64,000 bases of DNA from the NCBI RefSeq assembly GCF_000317615.1, contig NC_019780.1, positions 2,563,840-2,627,839 of the forward strand, in the 5' to 3' direction. The notes under the pieces are model-generated. The model did not search any database, was not told the origin of the DNA, and was given only the letters and a program-made list of their open reading frames with translations. The stretch's first letter is position 1, and the number at the start of each line of letters is the position of its first letter. Source of the DNA: Dactylococcopsis salina PCC 8305. Its GTDB lineage: Bacteria; Cyanobacteriota; Cyanobacteriia; Cyanobacteriales; Rubidibacteraceae. Shown piece after piece: positions 25,052 through 33,735 of the stretch. Made by a program: the position numbers and the translations under genes.

Positions 25052-25413
25052 TGATCCGCTCTCTTGACATTTCCCTATCTCCGTGAGTTGATTTCATTCA
25101 TAATGAAACGACCCTGCTTGGTGTCGGAGGTGGGGATGATGTTTAATTCAACCTAAAATCTACTTGCATACCATATTTTTCCAATTTTGCCCACTGGCTT
25201 TCCTTATGGTTGCTGTTCAATTATCTTTTCAATCCTAATGCTCGATCGAAGCCTGTCAATACGGGTAGGGGGGATATTAGAAACGAGTTTCCTTGCTTTC
25301 AGGGACGTTTTCTAAAATTGGCAATACTTCCCATTATATAGAAATACTCTATCAGAAAGCTCGATCGAGCGCAACCCCTGAAAAAAATATTTGTTATTCG
25401 TTATTTGTTATTT

Positions 25414-25516
25414 GTTCACTGGTCACTGATTACTGGTCACTGGGAGACGTTCCATGGAACGTCTCTACATTGGTCACTGATTACTGGTCACTGATTACTG
25501 GTCACTGGTCACTGGT
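25414..25516. repeat. TGGTCAC/TGATTAC heptamer array with 22-bp palindrome insert
   Basis: Heptamers related to the arrays at 17354 and 27903 (inverse orientation). A perfect palindrome, GAGACGTTCCA and its complement, sits at 25444-25465 in the middle. The identical palindrome recurs at 38589-38610, also inside another repeat, so it behaves as an independent small insertion. Confidence 0.8.
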
Positions 25517-25917
25517 TTGTTGAGTGGAGTTGACGAAACCTAACCCCAATAATGATTCTGCTTCTGCGAACCAAGTCAACGTCATTATATCCAGTTGATT
25601 ACTAATTATTCCGATTCCCCAGAAGAAGTTTGTTTTTCTGTTTCGATCGAGCGATTCATTCCGTGAATCATTTTCAGTAATCCTCGGACTTTTGCGTTAG
25701 GGTTTCCCGTTAGAGAAACGGATAAATGATCTCGATCGAGAGGATTTGATCAAGCATTTCTCCCCAGTGAGTCAGTTGGAAATAAAAAGTATAAGGAATC
25801 TGTAAAAGCGCGATCGATCCAGAAAAGATCAAGAAAGGTAAATAGGGTTTCCTGTTGGGAAACTGAAACCTTTACCCAATGAGGCTTTAAGGCTCTTAAC
25901 CCCTCAAAAAAGTGCAA

Positions 25918-26055: not shown

Positions 26056-26171
26056 CTTGCCTTACTACACCAACTAATTAACTTTTTCAGCAAACCCTAA
26101 TTAGTTTAATGAATACTCAGCCCTCGTTTACACTCAATCAAAAAGCAAGCTAGAGTTTAACTGCATAACTT

Positions 26172-26490
26172 CCAAATTCTGTCAACCCCTCGTTACGAAA
26201 GTTATAATTCCTTAACTAAAATTGATGCTAACTGTTTCGGAAAAACTTGACAAGATTTAATCAGTAGCCACGACAGCATGAGGGTTTGAAGTGGCTAAAT
26301 TTTGATCGAGACAGAACATCCCGTGGGATTATTGTTTTTATCAACATACCTGAAAAGACGTAATCTCGTCATCCGTACTCCCGAACCAAGTTCGGGAGCC
26401 TGCGGATGACCGTTGCTCAATATTTTCACTTCAAAATAATCGTAAAGAAATGTAAATAATGCCGTTTGATATAAAAAACTAATTCAATGT
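26172..26490. repeat. Diverged copy of ~300 bp structured element, with palindromic insert
   Basis: Matches the 29634 and 30012 elements in scattered conserved blocks: TTCTGTCAA(C/T)CCCTCG near the start, ACTTGACAAGATTT, CATACCTGAAA, TCTCGTCA and GTTTGAT...AACTAATT near the end. Relative to those copies it carries an extra ~48 bp at about 26370-26417 that forms a nested hairpin (GTCATCCG/CGGATGAC enclosing CTCCCGAAC/GTTCGGGAG). Confidence 0.65.
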
Positions 26491-26624
26491 CTTTGCAAAC
26501 ATTAGTTTTACTAATAAAATTTGGCACAAGGAATGATAAATGTTGGGTTGCGTTGTCACTTCACCCAATCTACGACTACGACTACGACTGATGGATGTTG
26601 GGTTACGTTGTCACTTCACCCAAC

Positions 26625-26768
26625 CTACGAGTGGGAGGGTTGTTTCTGACGTTGTTTAGGAACAATCGCACGGCGCGATCGATGCTGTGTTTGCGGTTGC
26701 GCCACAAATCCTGCCATACCACCGAGGCCTAAAATAAAAAGGCGTACCAAAAGCACTAAAACCAGCAT
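26625..26768 (-). CDS. Small membrane protein with basic tail
   Basis: 47 residues (MLVLVLLVRLFILGLGGMAGF, then VAQPQTQHRSRRAIVPKQRQ...). One strongly hydrophobic helix at about 2-23 followed by a basic, Gln-rich cytoplasmic-type tail. The stop codon TAG falls in the adjacent GTAGGTTGGGT repeat, so the repeat may have trimmed the gene. Divergent from speE. Family not recognised; coding status inferred from composition. Confidence 0.5.
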   Translation of the reverse strand: MLVLVLLVRLFILGLGGMAGFVAQPQTQHRSRRAIVPKQRQKQPSHS

Positions 26769-26962
26769 GGATGATAATCATCGCAGCCTAAACCATAGGT
26801 TGTTATTGAGTGCGATGGTCAGACTGCCATTATTATAGTTCCTTCGTTCAAAGGGGTCGGAAAGAAACGATAACGTTCTCGCTTAAGTTACAATAACCTG
26901 TGAAAGAGTGGGACTCGGAGGATACCGAGAATTTATCGATCGAAAAAGGAGAATCAATCATT

Positions 26963-27925
26963 ATGGCGGGTAGTGAGTTAAAAGCTGATCTTTGGGTTAC
27001 AGAATACATTACCCCTTGGGACATTTATGTGCATGGGGTGACGGAAATCTTGGCACATCAAAAAACAGCATTTCAGGAGATGTATATTGTCCAATCTGGA
27101 GCTTACGGAAAGGGATTAGTTTTAGATGGGAAATGGCAATCTTCCACAGGGGATGAGTTTCTTTACCATGAGGCTTTAGTCCATCCAGGGATGATCGTTC
27201 ATCCGCAGCCGAAAAAGGTTTTAGTGTTGGGAGGGGGTGAAGGCGCAACCATTCGGGAGGTATTGCGCTGGGAAACGGTGGAAAAAGTGAAAATGGTGGA
27301 TATTGATGGGGAGGTAGTGGAAGCCTGTAAACAGCATTTACCAGAGATGCACCAAGGCGCATTCGATGATCCGCGAACGGAGTTGGTCATTGGGGATGCG
27401 TTAGCGGTGTTGGATCAGAGTGAGGAACAATGGGATGTGGTGATTAGTGATCTTTCTGATCCCATTGAGGAAGGCCCTTCGTTTAAGTTATTTACAAAAG
27501 AATTTTTTGAGAAGGTCGATCGCGTTTTAGCCCCTGATGGCAAGTTTATTTTACAAGCCGGACCGGTGGCTTCTCCTTATATTTCCACTCACGCCAAACT
27601 GTTTAATACTCTGAAAACGGTGTTTGAACAGAATGTTTCTTATACGACTTTTGTTCCCACTTACGGTGAACCGTGGAGTTTGATTTTATCTTCTCATACT
27701 GCTTTTAATACTCGTCCCGAACCTACAGCAATTGATCGAATCTTAACCGAAAAAACCACTGGAACGTTACAACTGATTGATGGGATAACCGTTTTGGGGT
27801 TATTCCAAACTCCTGCTTATATTCGTCGCGCGATCGATCAACATCAAGAAATTTTTACTCTCTCTGAACCCCCGAAGTTTTTCGGAAAGGGGGTTAGTCA
27901 TCAATCAGTGACCAGTGATCAGTGA
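26963..27925 (+). CDS. speE: Spermidine synthase-like aminopropyltransferase
   Basis: 320 residues from ATG 26963 (MAGSELKADLWVTEYI), preceded by AAGGAG at 26946-26951; the frame opens earlier at 26900 but those residues look non-coding. The SpeE fold is clear: YGKGLVLDGKWQSSTGDEFLYHEALVHP, the nucleotide-binding VLVLGGGEGATIREVLRW, VDIDGEVVEACKQHLP, and DVVISDLSDPIEEGPS with the catalytic Asp. It transfers an aminopropyl group from decarboxylated SAM to a polyamine; whether the product is spermidine or another polyamine is not decidable. The last residues HQSVTSDQ come from a CAGTGAC repeat array. Confidence 0.88.
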   Translation: MAGSELKADLWVTEYITPWDIYVHGVTEILAHQKTAFQEMYIVQSGAYGKGLVLDGKWQSSTGDEFLYHEALVHPGMIVHPQPKKVLVLGGGEGATIREVLRWETVEKVKMVDIDGEVVEACKQHLPEMHQGAFDDPRTELVIGDALAVLDQSEEQWDVVISDLSDPIEEGPSFKLFTKEFFEKVDRVLAPDGKFILQAGPVASPYISTHAKLFNTLKTVFEQNVSYTTFVPTYGEPWSLILSSHTAFNTRPEPTAIDRILTEKTTGTLQLIDGITVLGLFQTPAYIRRAIDQHQEIFTLSEPPKFFGKGVSHQSVTSDQ

Positions 27926-27990
27926 CCAGTGACCAGTAATCAGTAATCAGTGACCAGTAATCAGTGACCAGTAATCAGTGACCAGTGATA
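27903..27990. repeat. Tandem CAGTGAC/CAGTAAT heptamer array
   Basis: About twelve heptamers of the TGATCAG/TGACCAG type. The array begins inside the speE reading frame and supplies its stop codon. Confidence 0.85.
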
Positions 27991-28046
27991 AATAACGAAT
28001 AACAAACAACAAATAACGATCCCTAAACTGTTTCAGGAGGCACTAA

Positions 28047-28598
28047 TTATTGGAAAATGATTTTTTCTAGTTCAATGAGCGATCGATCGATGTCATCATT
28101 AACAATTGCATAATCAAATTCCTCGGCGGCTGCGATTTCTGTTTTTGCCTCTGCTAATCGCTGCTCGATCGCTTTCGGATCATCTTTCCCCCGTTTTTCC
28201 AACCGTTGTTCTAACACGGGAAGAGAAGGAGGTAAAATAAAAATTCGAGTCGCTTCGGGGAAACTTTCCTGAACTTTTCTTGCTCCCACCACTTCAATTT
28301 CTAAAATTACTTTTTTCCCTGCTTGTAGTTGCTCTTCTACTGCTTTTTTCGGTGTGCCATAATAATTCCCTGTATATTTAGCCCATTCTAAAAATTCCCC
28401 GTTTTCAATCATTGTTTCAAACTCTTCAGAAGATAAAAAATAGTAGTCTTTTCCCTCTACTTCTCCCTCACGAGGAGCGCGAGTGGTTGCGGAAGTTGAT
28501 ACACTCAATTCAGGATGATGAGCGAGGAGTAATTTCACTAATGTTCCTTTTCCTACACCACTGGGTCCGGTAATAACAATCAATTCACCGTTTGCCAT
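28047..28598 (-). CDS. gmk: Guanylate kinase
   Basis: 183 residues. Converts GMP plus ATP to GDP plus ADP. Walker A ITGPSGVGKGTLVKLL (about 7-22), the GMP-binding TRAPREGEVEGKDYYFLS and FLEWAKYTGNYYGTPK, and the later ILEIEVVGARKVQE block are all present. Length is on the short side of normal but complete. Preceded by remA with 12 bp between them, the conserved remA-gmk pair. Confidence 0.96.
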   Translation of the reverse strand: MANGELIVITGPSGVGKGTLVKLLLAHHPELSVSTSATTRAPREGEVEGKDYYFLSSEEFETMIENGEFLEWAKYTGNYYGTPKKAVEEQLQAGKKVILEIEVVGARKVQESFPEATRIFILPPSLPVLEQRLEKRGKDDPKAIEQRLAEAKTEIAAAEEFDYAIVNDDIDRSLIELEKIIFQ

Positions 28599-28610
28599 GA
28601 GTTCTTCCCA

Positions 28611-28877
28611 TTAATTACTAGCTGCTTGGTTATCTTTGCTCAAAACAAAGCGATGTGCAACTGTTTCTGGTTGAATCGCTGACAGAATCACATGGCTAGA
28701 ATCGGTAATAATTACGGCCCTGGTTCGCCTGCCATAAGTGGCATCCACTAACTGACCTCTATCGCGTGCGTCGGTGACAATGCGCTTAATGGGCGCTGAT
28801 TCTGGACTCACGATCGCCACCACCCGATTCGCACAAACTATGTTCCCAAATCCGATATTAATTAGCTGCATTTTCAT
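28611..28877 (-). CDS. remA: RemA/DUF370 family regulator
   Basis: 88 residues. [30 protein letters not shown] and [42 protein letters not shown] are the RemA (DUF370) signature. In Bacillus RemA is a DNA-binding activator of matrix genes; in cyanobacteria the role is unproven. Located directly upstream of gmk in a probable operon. Confidence 0.92.
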
Positions 28878-29006
28878 ACACTTAACAGCATTTCCTCATT
28901 AACTATGGGTAGCCCTTTTGTCTCTATGTTATCCACAAAAAAAACTCTCTACCATTAAAAAAGATACATATCTTTGATTTGGTTTGATTTTGTCGGAAAA
29001 TGCTTT

Positions 29007-29609
29007 ATGAATAAGGTCTCTCTTGTCCGTTTCTTACTTCCTCTTGGCTTTCAATTGGCGCTGATTTGTGCTATTCCAGCGCCAGCCATCTATACGCAAA
29101 TAACGGGAACAAAGGCGATTCTGCAAACGATTTCTGTTGATCCTTATGGTTTCCTACGCGGCTATTCTCAAACTTTACGGTATGATATTTCTCGCTTGGA
29201 TACTGTGGAAAGTCTCTCTGGCTGGGAAACTGTGGTGCGTCAAACGGGAACAGGTCAGTTTCCTCCCAATGGCATTACTTTATATGTGATTCTACAAGCA
29301 CCAAATCTCGATCGCCCTGTTTCTCCCCCTCGTCCTTGGCAACCGATCGCGGTTCGTCACCAACCACCTGTCAATCTGGGTCAGAATCAAGTTGCTATCA
29401 AAGGTGAGTTAAATAATTCCTCGGTAACTTATGGTTTGGAGCGGTATTATTTCCCTGAATCACAACGACAAAAAATGAATCAAGCGATTAGTAATTTACA
29501 ACAAAACAACACTCAAGAACGTTCTTTTGTGGTAGAAATAAAGGTAGATGAAAAGGGAAATGCTGTTCCGATTAGTCTTTGGTTGGGAGATAAAAATTAC
29601 CGCTTTTAA
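29007..29609 (+). CDS. GDYXXLXY-type membrane-anchored protein
   Basis: 200 residues from ATG 29007 (MNKVSLVRFLLPLGFQLALICAIPAPA). One N-terminal membrane helix/signal anchor, then GFLRGYSQTLRYDIS, a variant of the GDYXXLXY motif seen in a family of small exported proteins of unknown role. The later VAIKGELNNSSVTYGLERYYFPE matches the rest of that family. Not known to be enzymatic. Confidence 0.7.
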   Translation: MNKVSLVRFLLPLGFQLALICAIPAPAIYTQITGTKAILQTISVDPYGFLRGYSQTLRYDISRLDTVESLSGWETVVRQTGTGQFPPNGITLYVILQAPNLDRPVSPPRPWQPIAVRHQPPVNLGQNQVAIKGELNNSSVTYGLERYYFPESQRQKMNQAISNLQQNNTQERSFVVEIKVDEKGNAVPISLWLGDKNYRF

Positions 29610-29633
29610 TTCGCTATGCACAGCTTCTTAATT

Positions 29634-29936
29634 CTGTCAATCCCTCGCAACAAAAGTTTTAACTCTGCAACAAAAATCCATGGCAGTTGTCTGCTAAAAA
29701 CTTGACAAGATTTGCTTCTCCTCAACGATGGCATGGGAGTTTTACCCACCAATTTTGATAAAAGACAAAAACTCCCTCTGGATTATGGTTTCGAGTATCA
29801 TACCTGAAAGGGCGCATTCTCGTCAATATTTTTCTTCGGTGCGCGATCGTTTATTTTTGTTAAGGGGACGGTTTGATTGAAAGAACTAATTTAATATAAC
29901 TATTCAAATTAGCTTTTCTTATCTGTGCTTGACCTA
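29634..29936. repeat. ~303 bp structured direct repeat, copy A
   Basis: Nearly identical to 30012-30316, starting 378 bp apart. It contains GGGAGTTTT...AAAAACTCCC, a pairable stem around ACCCACCAATTTTG, and further motifs shared with the diverged copy at 26172. No ORF. A family of conserved non-coding RNAs is one reading, a MITE another. Confidence 0.8.
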
Positions 29937-30011
29937 GATTAGATATAGAGTTACGATAAAGTGTTATCCAAAGGCTGGAGGAGCAAAAACTCTAAAAGCA
30001 CTCAATTGTAG

Positions 30012-30316
30012 TTCTGTCAATCCCTCGCAACAAAAGTTTTAACTCTGCAACAAAAATCCATGGCAGTTGTCCGCTAAAAACTTGACAAGATTTGCTTCTC
30101 CTCAACGATGGCATGGGAGTTTTACCCACCAATTTTGATAAAAGACAAAAACTCCCTCTGGATTATGGTTTCGAGTATCATACCTGAAACGGCGCATTCT
30201 CGTCAATATTTTTCTTCGGTGCGCGATCGTTTATTTTTGTTAAGGGGACGGTTTGATTGAAAGAACTAATTAAGTATAACTATTCAAATTAGCTTTTCTT
30301 ATCTGTGCTTGATCTA
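30012..30316. repeat. ~303 bp structured direct repeat, copy B
   Basis: Differs from copy A at a handful of positions (for example TCTGCT/TCCGCT, GAAAGGG/GAAACGG, TTTAATATA/TTAAGTATA). The unique spacer between copies (29937-30011) has no match elsewhere in the window. Followed by an array of inverted GTAGGTTGGGT units (30335-30435). Confidence 0.8.
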
Positions 30317-30334: not shown

Positions 30335-30435
30335 AAGATGACTGTTGGGTTTCGCTTGGCTTCACCCAACCTACGTTTTCTTCACCCAACCTACGTTTTC
30401 TGTTAGGTTTCGCTTGGCTTCACTAGAGCCTACGT
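30335..30435. repeat. Inverted GTAGGTTGGGT repeats
   Basis: Three adjacent inverted copies (TTGGGTTTCGCTTGGCTTCACCCAACCTACG and shortened variants) that run into the stop region of the DUF1997 gene. Confidence 0.75.
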
Positions 30436-32389: not shown

Positions 32390-32443
32390 AATTGATCTCA
32401 GTCTGATGATTGTTCTTAGGATAGCAAACTGATTTAGTGCCTC

Positions 32444-32633
32444 CTAAAAAAGTCCATTGGTTGGTTTAGTAAGGCAAGAGGCAAAAGGCAAGAGGCAAAA
32501 GGCAAGAGGCAAAAGGCAAGAGGCAAAAGGCAAGAGGCTTGCATGCAAGGTGCGTGACGATTGAACAATCAATGAACTTGCATTTTTACTCAGATCTTAA
32601 TCGCCTCAAATCCTTATTTGGTAAAATTTTCAG
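32444..32633. repeat. GGCAAG-core repeat, copy 3
   Basis: Left end CTAAAAAAGTCCATTGGTTGG, about nine AGGCAAA/AGGCAAG heptamers alternating, then the GTGACGATTGAACAATCAAT arm and right end TATTTGGTAAAATTTTCAG. Confidence 0.8.
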
Positions 32634-33542: not shown

Positions 33543-33735
33543 CTGAAAAAGTTCATGTTTTCGGTGTAGTAAGGCAAGAGGCAAGTTGCCTTAGGCAAGA
33601 GGCAAAAGGCAAGAGGCAAAAGGCAAGAGGCAAAAGGCAAGAGGCAAAAGGCAAGAGGCAAAAGGCAAGAGGCAAGATTTCAAGGTTTTGATGCAGGGTG
33701 CGTGACTATTGAGCGTTCAATTTCCTTGTTTTTCC
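33543..33735. repeat. GGCAAG-core repeat, copy 4 (diverged)
   Basis: Left end CTGAAAAAGTTCATG, about eleven GGCAAGA/GGCAAAA heptamers, then a diverged right arm (GTGACTATTGAGCGTTCAAT). The right inverted end is not recognisable. Follows the HEAT gene by 6 bp. Confidence 0.75.

Follow-up and report, generated by a model that had tools for sequence, protein, structure and literature searches.

The 64,000-nucleotide window analysed here (Dactylococcopsis salina PCC 8305, contig NC_019780.1, positions 2,563,840 to 2,627,839) holds three copies, A, B and C, of an element of about 300 bases that belongs to a dispersed family, whose members, judging from their sequence patterns, are probably genes for small untranslated RNAs and not folded RNAs or simple jumping DNA. 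Copies B (29617-29934) and C (29997-30314) are full length and form a tandem duplication, 380 bp from start to start and 98% identical over 300 nt (29629-29928 against 30009-30308), as a preliminary description of this DNA had noted for near-identical copies at 29634 and 30012. Copy A (26162-26526) is intergenic, full length and diverged; it matches B and C at 68-75% identity in blocks of 97 nt and 63 nt and keeps the ordered blocks named in that description, which did not mention a 48-nt hairpin, resembling a repetitive extragenic palindrome (REP), inserted at 26369-26416. All three copies, delimited here without regard to strand, share a conserved right end (ATTAGTTTTACTAAT at 26501-26515 in A; ATTAGCTTTTCTTAT at 29908-29922 in B and 30288-30302 in C). 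Copy A lies ~440 bp upstream of the ATG of a spermidine-synthase-like gene (NCBIfam speE-type models, somewhat below cut-offs), and copy B lies directly 3' of the stop codon of a GDYXXLXY-domain gene (28974-29609).

With copy C as query, BLAST returned 44 places in the genome at E ≤ 1, a recurrence well above chance, and a sequence-only model built from 31 copies (28 from this genome and three from sister genomes) returned 39 at E ≤ 0.1; these comprise 29 full-length matches (E ≤ 1.8e-29), each spanning the entire model, and ten weaker ones, with 28 of the 29 already in the model's alignment and the 29th found by the model. Collecting the copies in the genome, as had been proposed, thus revealed a family larger than first stated; the earlier view that it is not a mere recent duplication holds for the family as a whole, although B and C are a recent tandem duplication. 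The elements are intergenic and near-constant in length, and six pairs in this genome lie close together, spaced 380 to about 2,095 bp.

The six genomes of the genus (G000, the present one, to G005) hold 29, 6, 2, 1, 1 and 1 clear copies, the match in G004 being weaker (E 7.8e-9), and they also contain weaker partial matches. A search of the order under strict filters, with no more than eight candidates per genome scored, gave matches in 62 of 291 genomes at E ≤ 0.01, the weakest of which may have arisen by chance; 27 of the 62 reach E ≤ 1e-5. A broader model, with at most five candidates scored per genome, matched 12 of 388 genomes of the class at E ≤ 1e-4, all 12 within the same order (the share of the 388 that lies outside the order is not listed). 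Many matches in other genomes are full length, with several per genome. One genus among them (g55) appears to be Planktothrix, to judge from a flanking gene of a Planktothrix record that is nearly identical to those of the g55 loci. A pattern scan returned five records, two of them titled as other phyla; the profile found full-length elements in two records (L161 and L162), a weak match in a third (L159) and none in the other two.

Searches of plasmids and phages with one copy as query, and of viral contigs with one exact pattern, gave no match. At the gathering score, Rfam matched neither the element in the window, where it found one tRNA elsewhere, nor any of 20 element loci submitted; a relaxed search gave a single chance-level overlap, CRISPR-DR36 at E 3.6. 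Among the top-ranked titles of the literature searches (3 to 20 per search) none concerned this repeat, an absence that does not prove it unpublished, and the family has apparently gone unlabelled and unrecognised so far in this cyanobacterium and some relatives. Repeats related to the element also occur in other arrangements: a tandem array of about 3.8 units, each 206 bp long and 94% matching, derives from part of it in another genome (L137 772-1546, G265:C14), and L153 451-2161 (G000:C1:1822700-1825500) and L152 contain 300-nt repeats, four in tandem and two as a pair, that are weakly related to its left part.

The element is real, under selection and non-coding. Within a 195-nt core, each of the six frames is open in 0-2 of the 31 copies, which agrees with the absence of an open reading frame (ORF) described before; a protein-coding reading, attractive by eye for one block, was ruled out by these stop counts. 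One Planktothrix-type copy is open by eye, and its neighbours have early stops (also by eye, not counted). An alignment of 24 non-redundant rows, whose tree spans 7.2 substitutions per site, has 36 invariant columns out of 191; 200 neutral simulations at equal rates yielded 0.24 on average and never more than 2. At orthologous loci the element is 50-76% identical, compared with 28-63% in the 60 nt directly outside (nine comparisons at five loci); some regions further out are coding and up to 79% identical. Of six G001 loci examined, five have flanking genes in common with a D. salina locus that also carries a copy. Such constraint, exceeding that of the adjoining spacers, is not the neutral decay after insertion expected of copies of a miniature inverted-repeat transposable element (MITE), and across copies it takes the form of primary-sequence blocks with near-fixed spacing.

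In the middle of the element the minus strand carries a SigA-type promoter signature, TTGACG, an 18-bp spacer and TAnnnT. In an unanchored alignment of the 31 copies, A165, T169, A170, C172 and C189-G190-T191 are invariant and positions 166-168 variable; read on the minus strand, the invariant columns are -7T, -11A, -12T, -14G and the CGT of the -35 box, and the variable ones are -10 to -8, where sigma70 promoters allow freedom. CGTCAA is invariant in 41 of 41 rows of a wider alignment; T157/T158, which read as A on the minus strand, are likewise invariant in the 31 copies and fall at the expected start, 7-8 nt past the -10 box. Among 87 located copies the spacer is 18 bp in 86, the -35 box is TTGACG in 77 and position 6 of the -10 box is T in 82; the conserved site is the best promoter-like site of the minus strand in 72 of the 87 and among the best three in 80; its mean score is 9.3, and the best sites of shuffled sequence average 7.9. 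By its signature, the element has a putative promoter of its own, one mark of a small RNA (sRNA) gene, and this promoter reads the strand opposite to that written out in the preliminary description.

In the window the -35 and -10 boxes, all on the minus strand, lie at 30201-30206 (TTGACG) and 30177-30182 (TATGAT, 18-bp spacer) in copy C, at 29821-29826 (TTGACG) and 29797-29802 (TATGAT) in copy B, and at 26367-26372 and 26343-26348 (TATGTT) in copy A, where the insert has turned the -35 box into ATGACG. With the invariant T157/T158 as guide, transcription is predicted to start near 30170, 29790 and 26336, and the putative transcribed parts occupy 30015-30170 in C, 29635-29790 in B and 26180-26336 in A, again on the minus strand. 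Mechanically predicted ORFs nearest on the left of 86 copies are on the minus strand, with their start toward the element, in 37 cases, and on the plus strand, with their end toward it, in 40; nine copies have none. Because this orientation is random, the element is not simply the promoter of its flanking gene, and such a general role is ruled out by the counts, the ntcA locus excepted.

Upstream of the promoter, copies from the genus of D. salina carry a direct repeat resembling HLR1, which is described in the literature as KTTACAWW-N2-KTTACAWW, activating from about -66 to -45. The HLR1-like repeat lies 17-22 nt before the -35 box in 21 of 23 non-redundant copies of the genus, would fall near -73 to -56, and scores a mean of 12.5 out of 16 against 10.6 in shuffled sequence, with at least 13 in 14 of the 23. 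Its minus-strand instances in the window are a 15/16 match in copy A (TTTACATT-TC-TTTACGAT, 26439-26456) and weak 12/16 matches in copies B (29846-29863) and C (30226-30243), which are identical here, only one of the pair having been scored. A copy stands beside ntcA (NCBIfam NtcA, above cut-off) in five of the six genus genomes (loci L003, L092, L123, L187 and L093), always upstream and with its minus strand toward the gene, and in D. salina this copy has a perfect 16/16 repeat; a link between light or redox control and nitrogen control is possible.

We propose, with a probability of roughly 0.48, that each element works as a small non-coding transcription unit of its own and that the copies make up a dispersed family of paralogues. 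The housekeeping-type (SigA/sigma70) promoter in the middle of each copy would drive transcription of the minus strand, under an upstream control region that would occupy the right half and, in the genus of D. salina, include the HLR1-like repeat typical of RpaB-type regulators. From the predicted starts, transcription would run left through about 155-180 nt, conserved but weakly folded, to give a short untranslated RNA, and at one locus the element may in addition serve ntcA as a distal promoter. From these patterns we infer transcription itself, an RNA and not only the DNA as the product, base-pairing action of the kind exerted by sRNAs, and control by an RpaB-type regulator. A more ambitious version, in which the elements are order-wide paralogous sRNA genes regulated by light or redox, ~29 of them in one genome, spreading yet selected and standing between an sRNA family and a domesticated mobile element, is conceivable but somewhat unlikely.

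Several points weigh against a stand-alone transcription unit. The pattern that located the promoter presets the TA and the -35 box, which leaves the spacer, the last T and the variability at -10 positions 3-5 as the only independent features; it located 87 of 90 copies, three of which were counted twice (L031/L090, L032/L091 and L033/L092). In four copies an insert changes the -35 box, and conservation of a promoter is also possible within a transposon. A simple pattern search showed no enrichment of intrinsic terminators at the expected 3' end or at any fixed place. HLR1-like repeats were scored in the genus of D. salina only, and none was seen by eye in Planktothrix-type copies. Finally, a 19-bp helix on the plus strand has a covariation score of 0.159 against 0.117 (standard deviation (s.d.) 0.009) in shuffles, and changes on both sides occur in 40 of its cells (shuffles 26.6); none of 500 shuffles was as high in either measure, and slid versions were lower.

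This helix bears on the preliminary description, which had read the surviving blocks of copy A as selection on RNA structure: the selection is upheld by the invariant columns and by orthologous retention, and the structure mostly is not. RNAalifold found 0 pairs on the 31 copies. In non-redundant sets, scored with ribosum and compared with column shuffles, it reached -27.7 on the plus strand (shuffles -5.6, s.d. 2.4) and -39.4 on the minus strand (-8.3, s.d. 2.8) for 22 Planktothrix-group copies, and -28.8 over the whole element for 21 genus copies, with several windows below shuffles; yet the pairs predicted for the genus mostly join invariant blocks, and the few two-sided changes are confined to a CTAAT..ATTAG stem. 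A long-range inverted repeat, ACGA..GGGTT / AACCC..TCGT, is clearest in the Planktothrix group and shows more covariation than shuffles. For the 19-bp helix, defined from one sequence, 67.7% of cells are paired (shuffles 64.1, s.d. 0.7; slid versions 32-46%), the number of pairs with two-sided changes is the same as in shuffles (261/500), and pairing matched strands gains little over pairing mismatched ones (-11.96/-11.29 kcal, 56/2000 permutations). Single copies fold with z-scores near 0: -0.42 on the plus and -0.31 on the minus strand in the genus (n=20), where their own flanks give -0.46, and -0.56 and -0.51 in other copies (n=24). Compensatory changes, for which a check had been suggested earlier, are nearly absent in the genus set, and some occur in one long-range helix in the wider set. 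A structured RNA read from the plus strand, which is also favoured by extended -10 sites on that strand (in 9 of 23 genus copies they cluster to the left of the core, at a distance of about 55-67 nt), is on this evidence very improbable, although the element may have limited structure with one long-range helix.

Folding no better than shuffled sequence, together with constraint on spaced primary-sequence blocks, would also suit a cis-acting DNA site, either an array of sites (the TTTTGTCAA, TTGACAAG and TCGTCAA blocks) bound by a protein that acts in the nucleoid, in segregation or in recombination, or a long pair of inverted operators on either side of the promoter, to which the blocks ACGA..GGGTT / AACCC..TCGT would correspond. 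However, the way in which invariant and variable positions follow the sigma70 pattern is difficult to account for unless the element is transcribed, and no strand polarity or regular spacing is apparent by eye in the positions of the copies along the D. salina genome; we regard such a site as improbable. Type I toxin-antitoxin systems, CAST or Tn7 ends and dif/cer-like sites were considered as further readings, with no search aimed at them, and were not adopted.

The uneven copy number across the genus raises the alternative of a mobile element (MITE-like or other) that is old and non-autonomous, spreads slowly and persists, and whose biology includes the internal promoter. Dispersed close relatives in the D. 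salina genome are 85-94% identical over about 300-500 nt, the element ends directly abut predicted genes in several genomes, and one Planktothrix locus carries the element in three of eight genomes and lacks it in five, three of these five with both flanks syntenic. At that locus, however, we found neither a target duplication nor a clean empty site, the spacer being otherwise too changed to read the junction, and no terminal inverted repeats were seen in alignments, where the left end (gCAtAAA..TTTTGTCAA) does not recur in inverted form at the right end (ATTAGnAAAACTTAT). Orthologous retention, constraint, the coverage of the whole model by all 29 strong matches and the lack of plasmid, phage and viral matches in the searches above also speak against it, and we consider a mobile element rather unlikely. 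The plain MITE that the preliminary description had named as the alternative, marked by inverted ends, target duplications and a lack of covariation, is disfavoured: the copies lack inverted ends and are syntenic and constrained, despite their dispersal and presence/absence variation.

The distribution of the 48-nt hairpin of copy A suggests targeted insertion. Four full copies exist in the genome, all at the same site in the -35 box of four otherwise diverged elements (copy A and three others in G000:C1, near 1423427, 2833287 and 3380294); beyond these, no further full copy was found in the genome, and a core with two mismatches and a 21-nt piece occur elsewhere in it. Four related hairpins read in sister genomes follow TTGA (two), CTGA (one) and TTAA (one). 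It is these nested hairpins, and not the 300-bp element itself, that resemble GTAG/CGTC-tagged REPs (PMC3733652).

Among known systems, the Yfr2 family of cyanobacterial non-coding RNAs (PMC2662882) shares with the element several paralogous short genes per genome, promoters of their own, variable neighbours and occurrence in several cyanobacteria; it is described there with a conserved stem and a 12-nt loop, whereas our element has no comparable structure, is a unit of about 300 bp with up to 29 copies and has no Rfam match. PsrR1, an sRNA reported to belong to the RpaB regulon in Synechocystis (PMC13421787), is comparable as a non-coding unit with a possible HLR1/RpaB link, but the element has many copies and an HLR1-like repeat only in the genus of D. 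salina, a comparison made by description and not by sequence. MITEs (PMC10969869) are likewise short, non-coding, dispersed and variable in copy number; the element differs in that no terminal inverted repeats were seen and no target duplication was found, and in its orthologous retention and purifying selection.

If our proposal is true, a major photosynthetic lineage gains a multi-copy non-coding family that is under selection and has apparently escaped notice, and the paralogues, as many as 29 in a single genome, would be a natural set in which to test the duplication, dispersal and divergence of a regulatory RNA family; the promoter signature gives precise predicted start sites that can be checked by RNA sequencing.

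By eye, several element copies are adjoined by another dispersed repeat (TGTTGGGTTTCG..CACCCAACCTACG, which also occurs in inverted form), in the window at 26526-26640 and 30342-30430. The window also contains short tandem arrays with units of 7-14 nt (GGTCACT-type and GGCAAGA-type) at 25399-25522, 27889-28016, 32443-32579 and 33564-33714.

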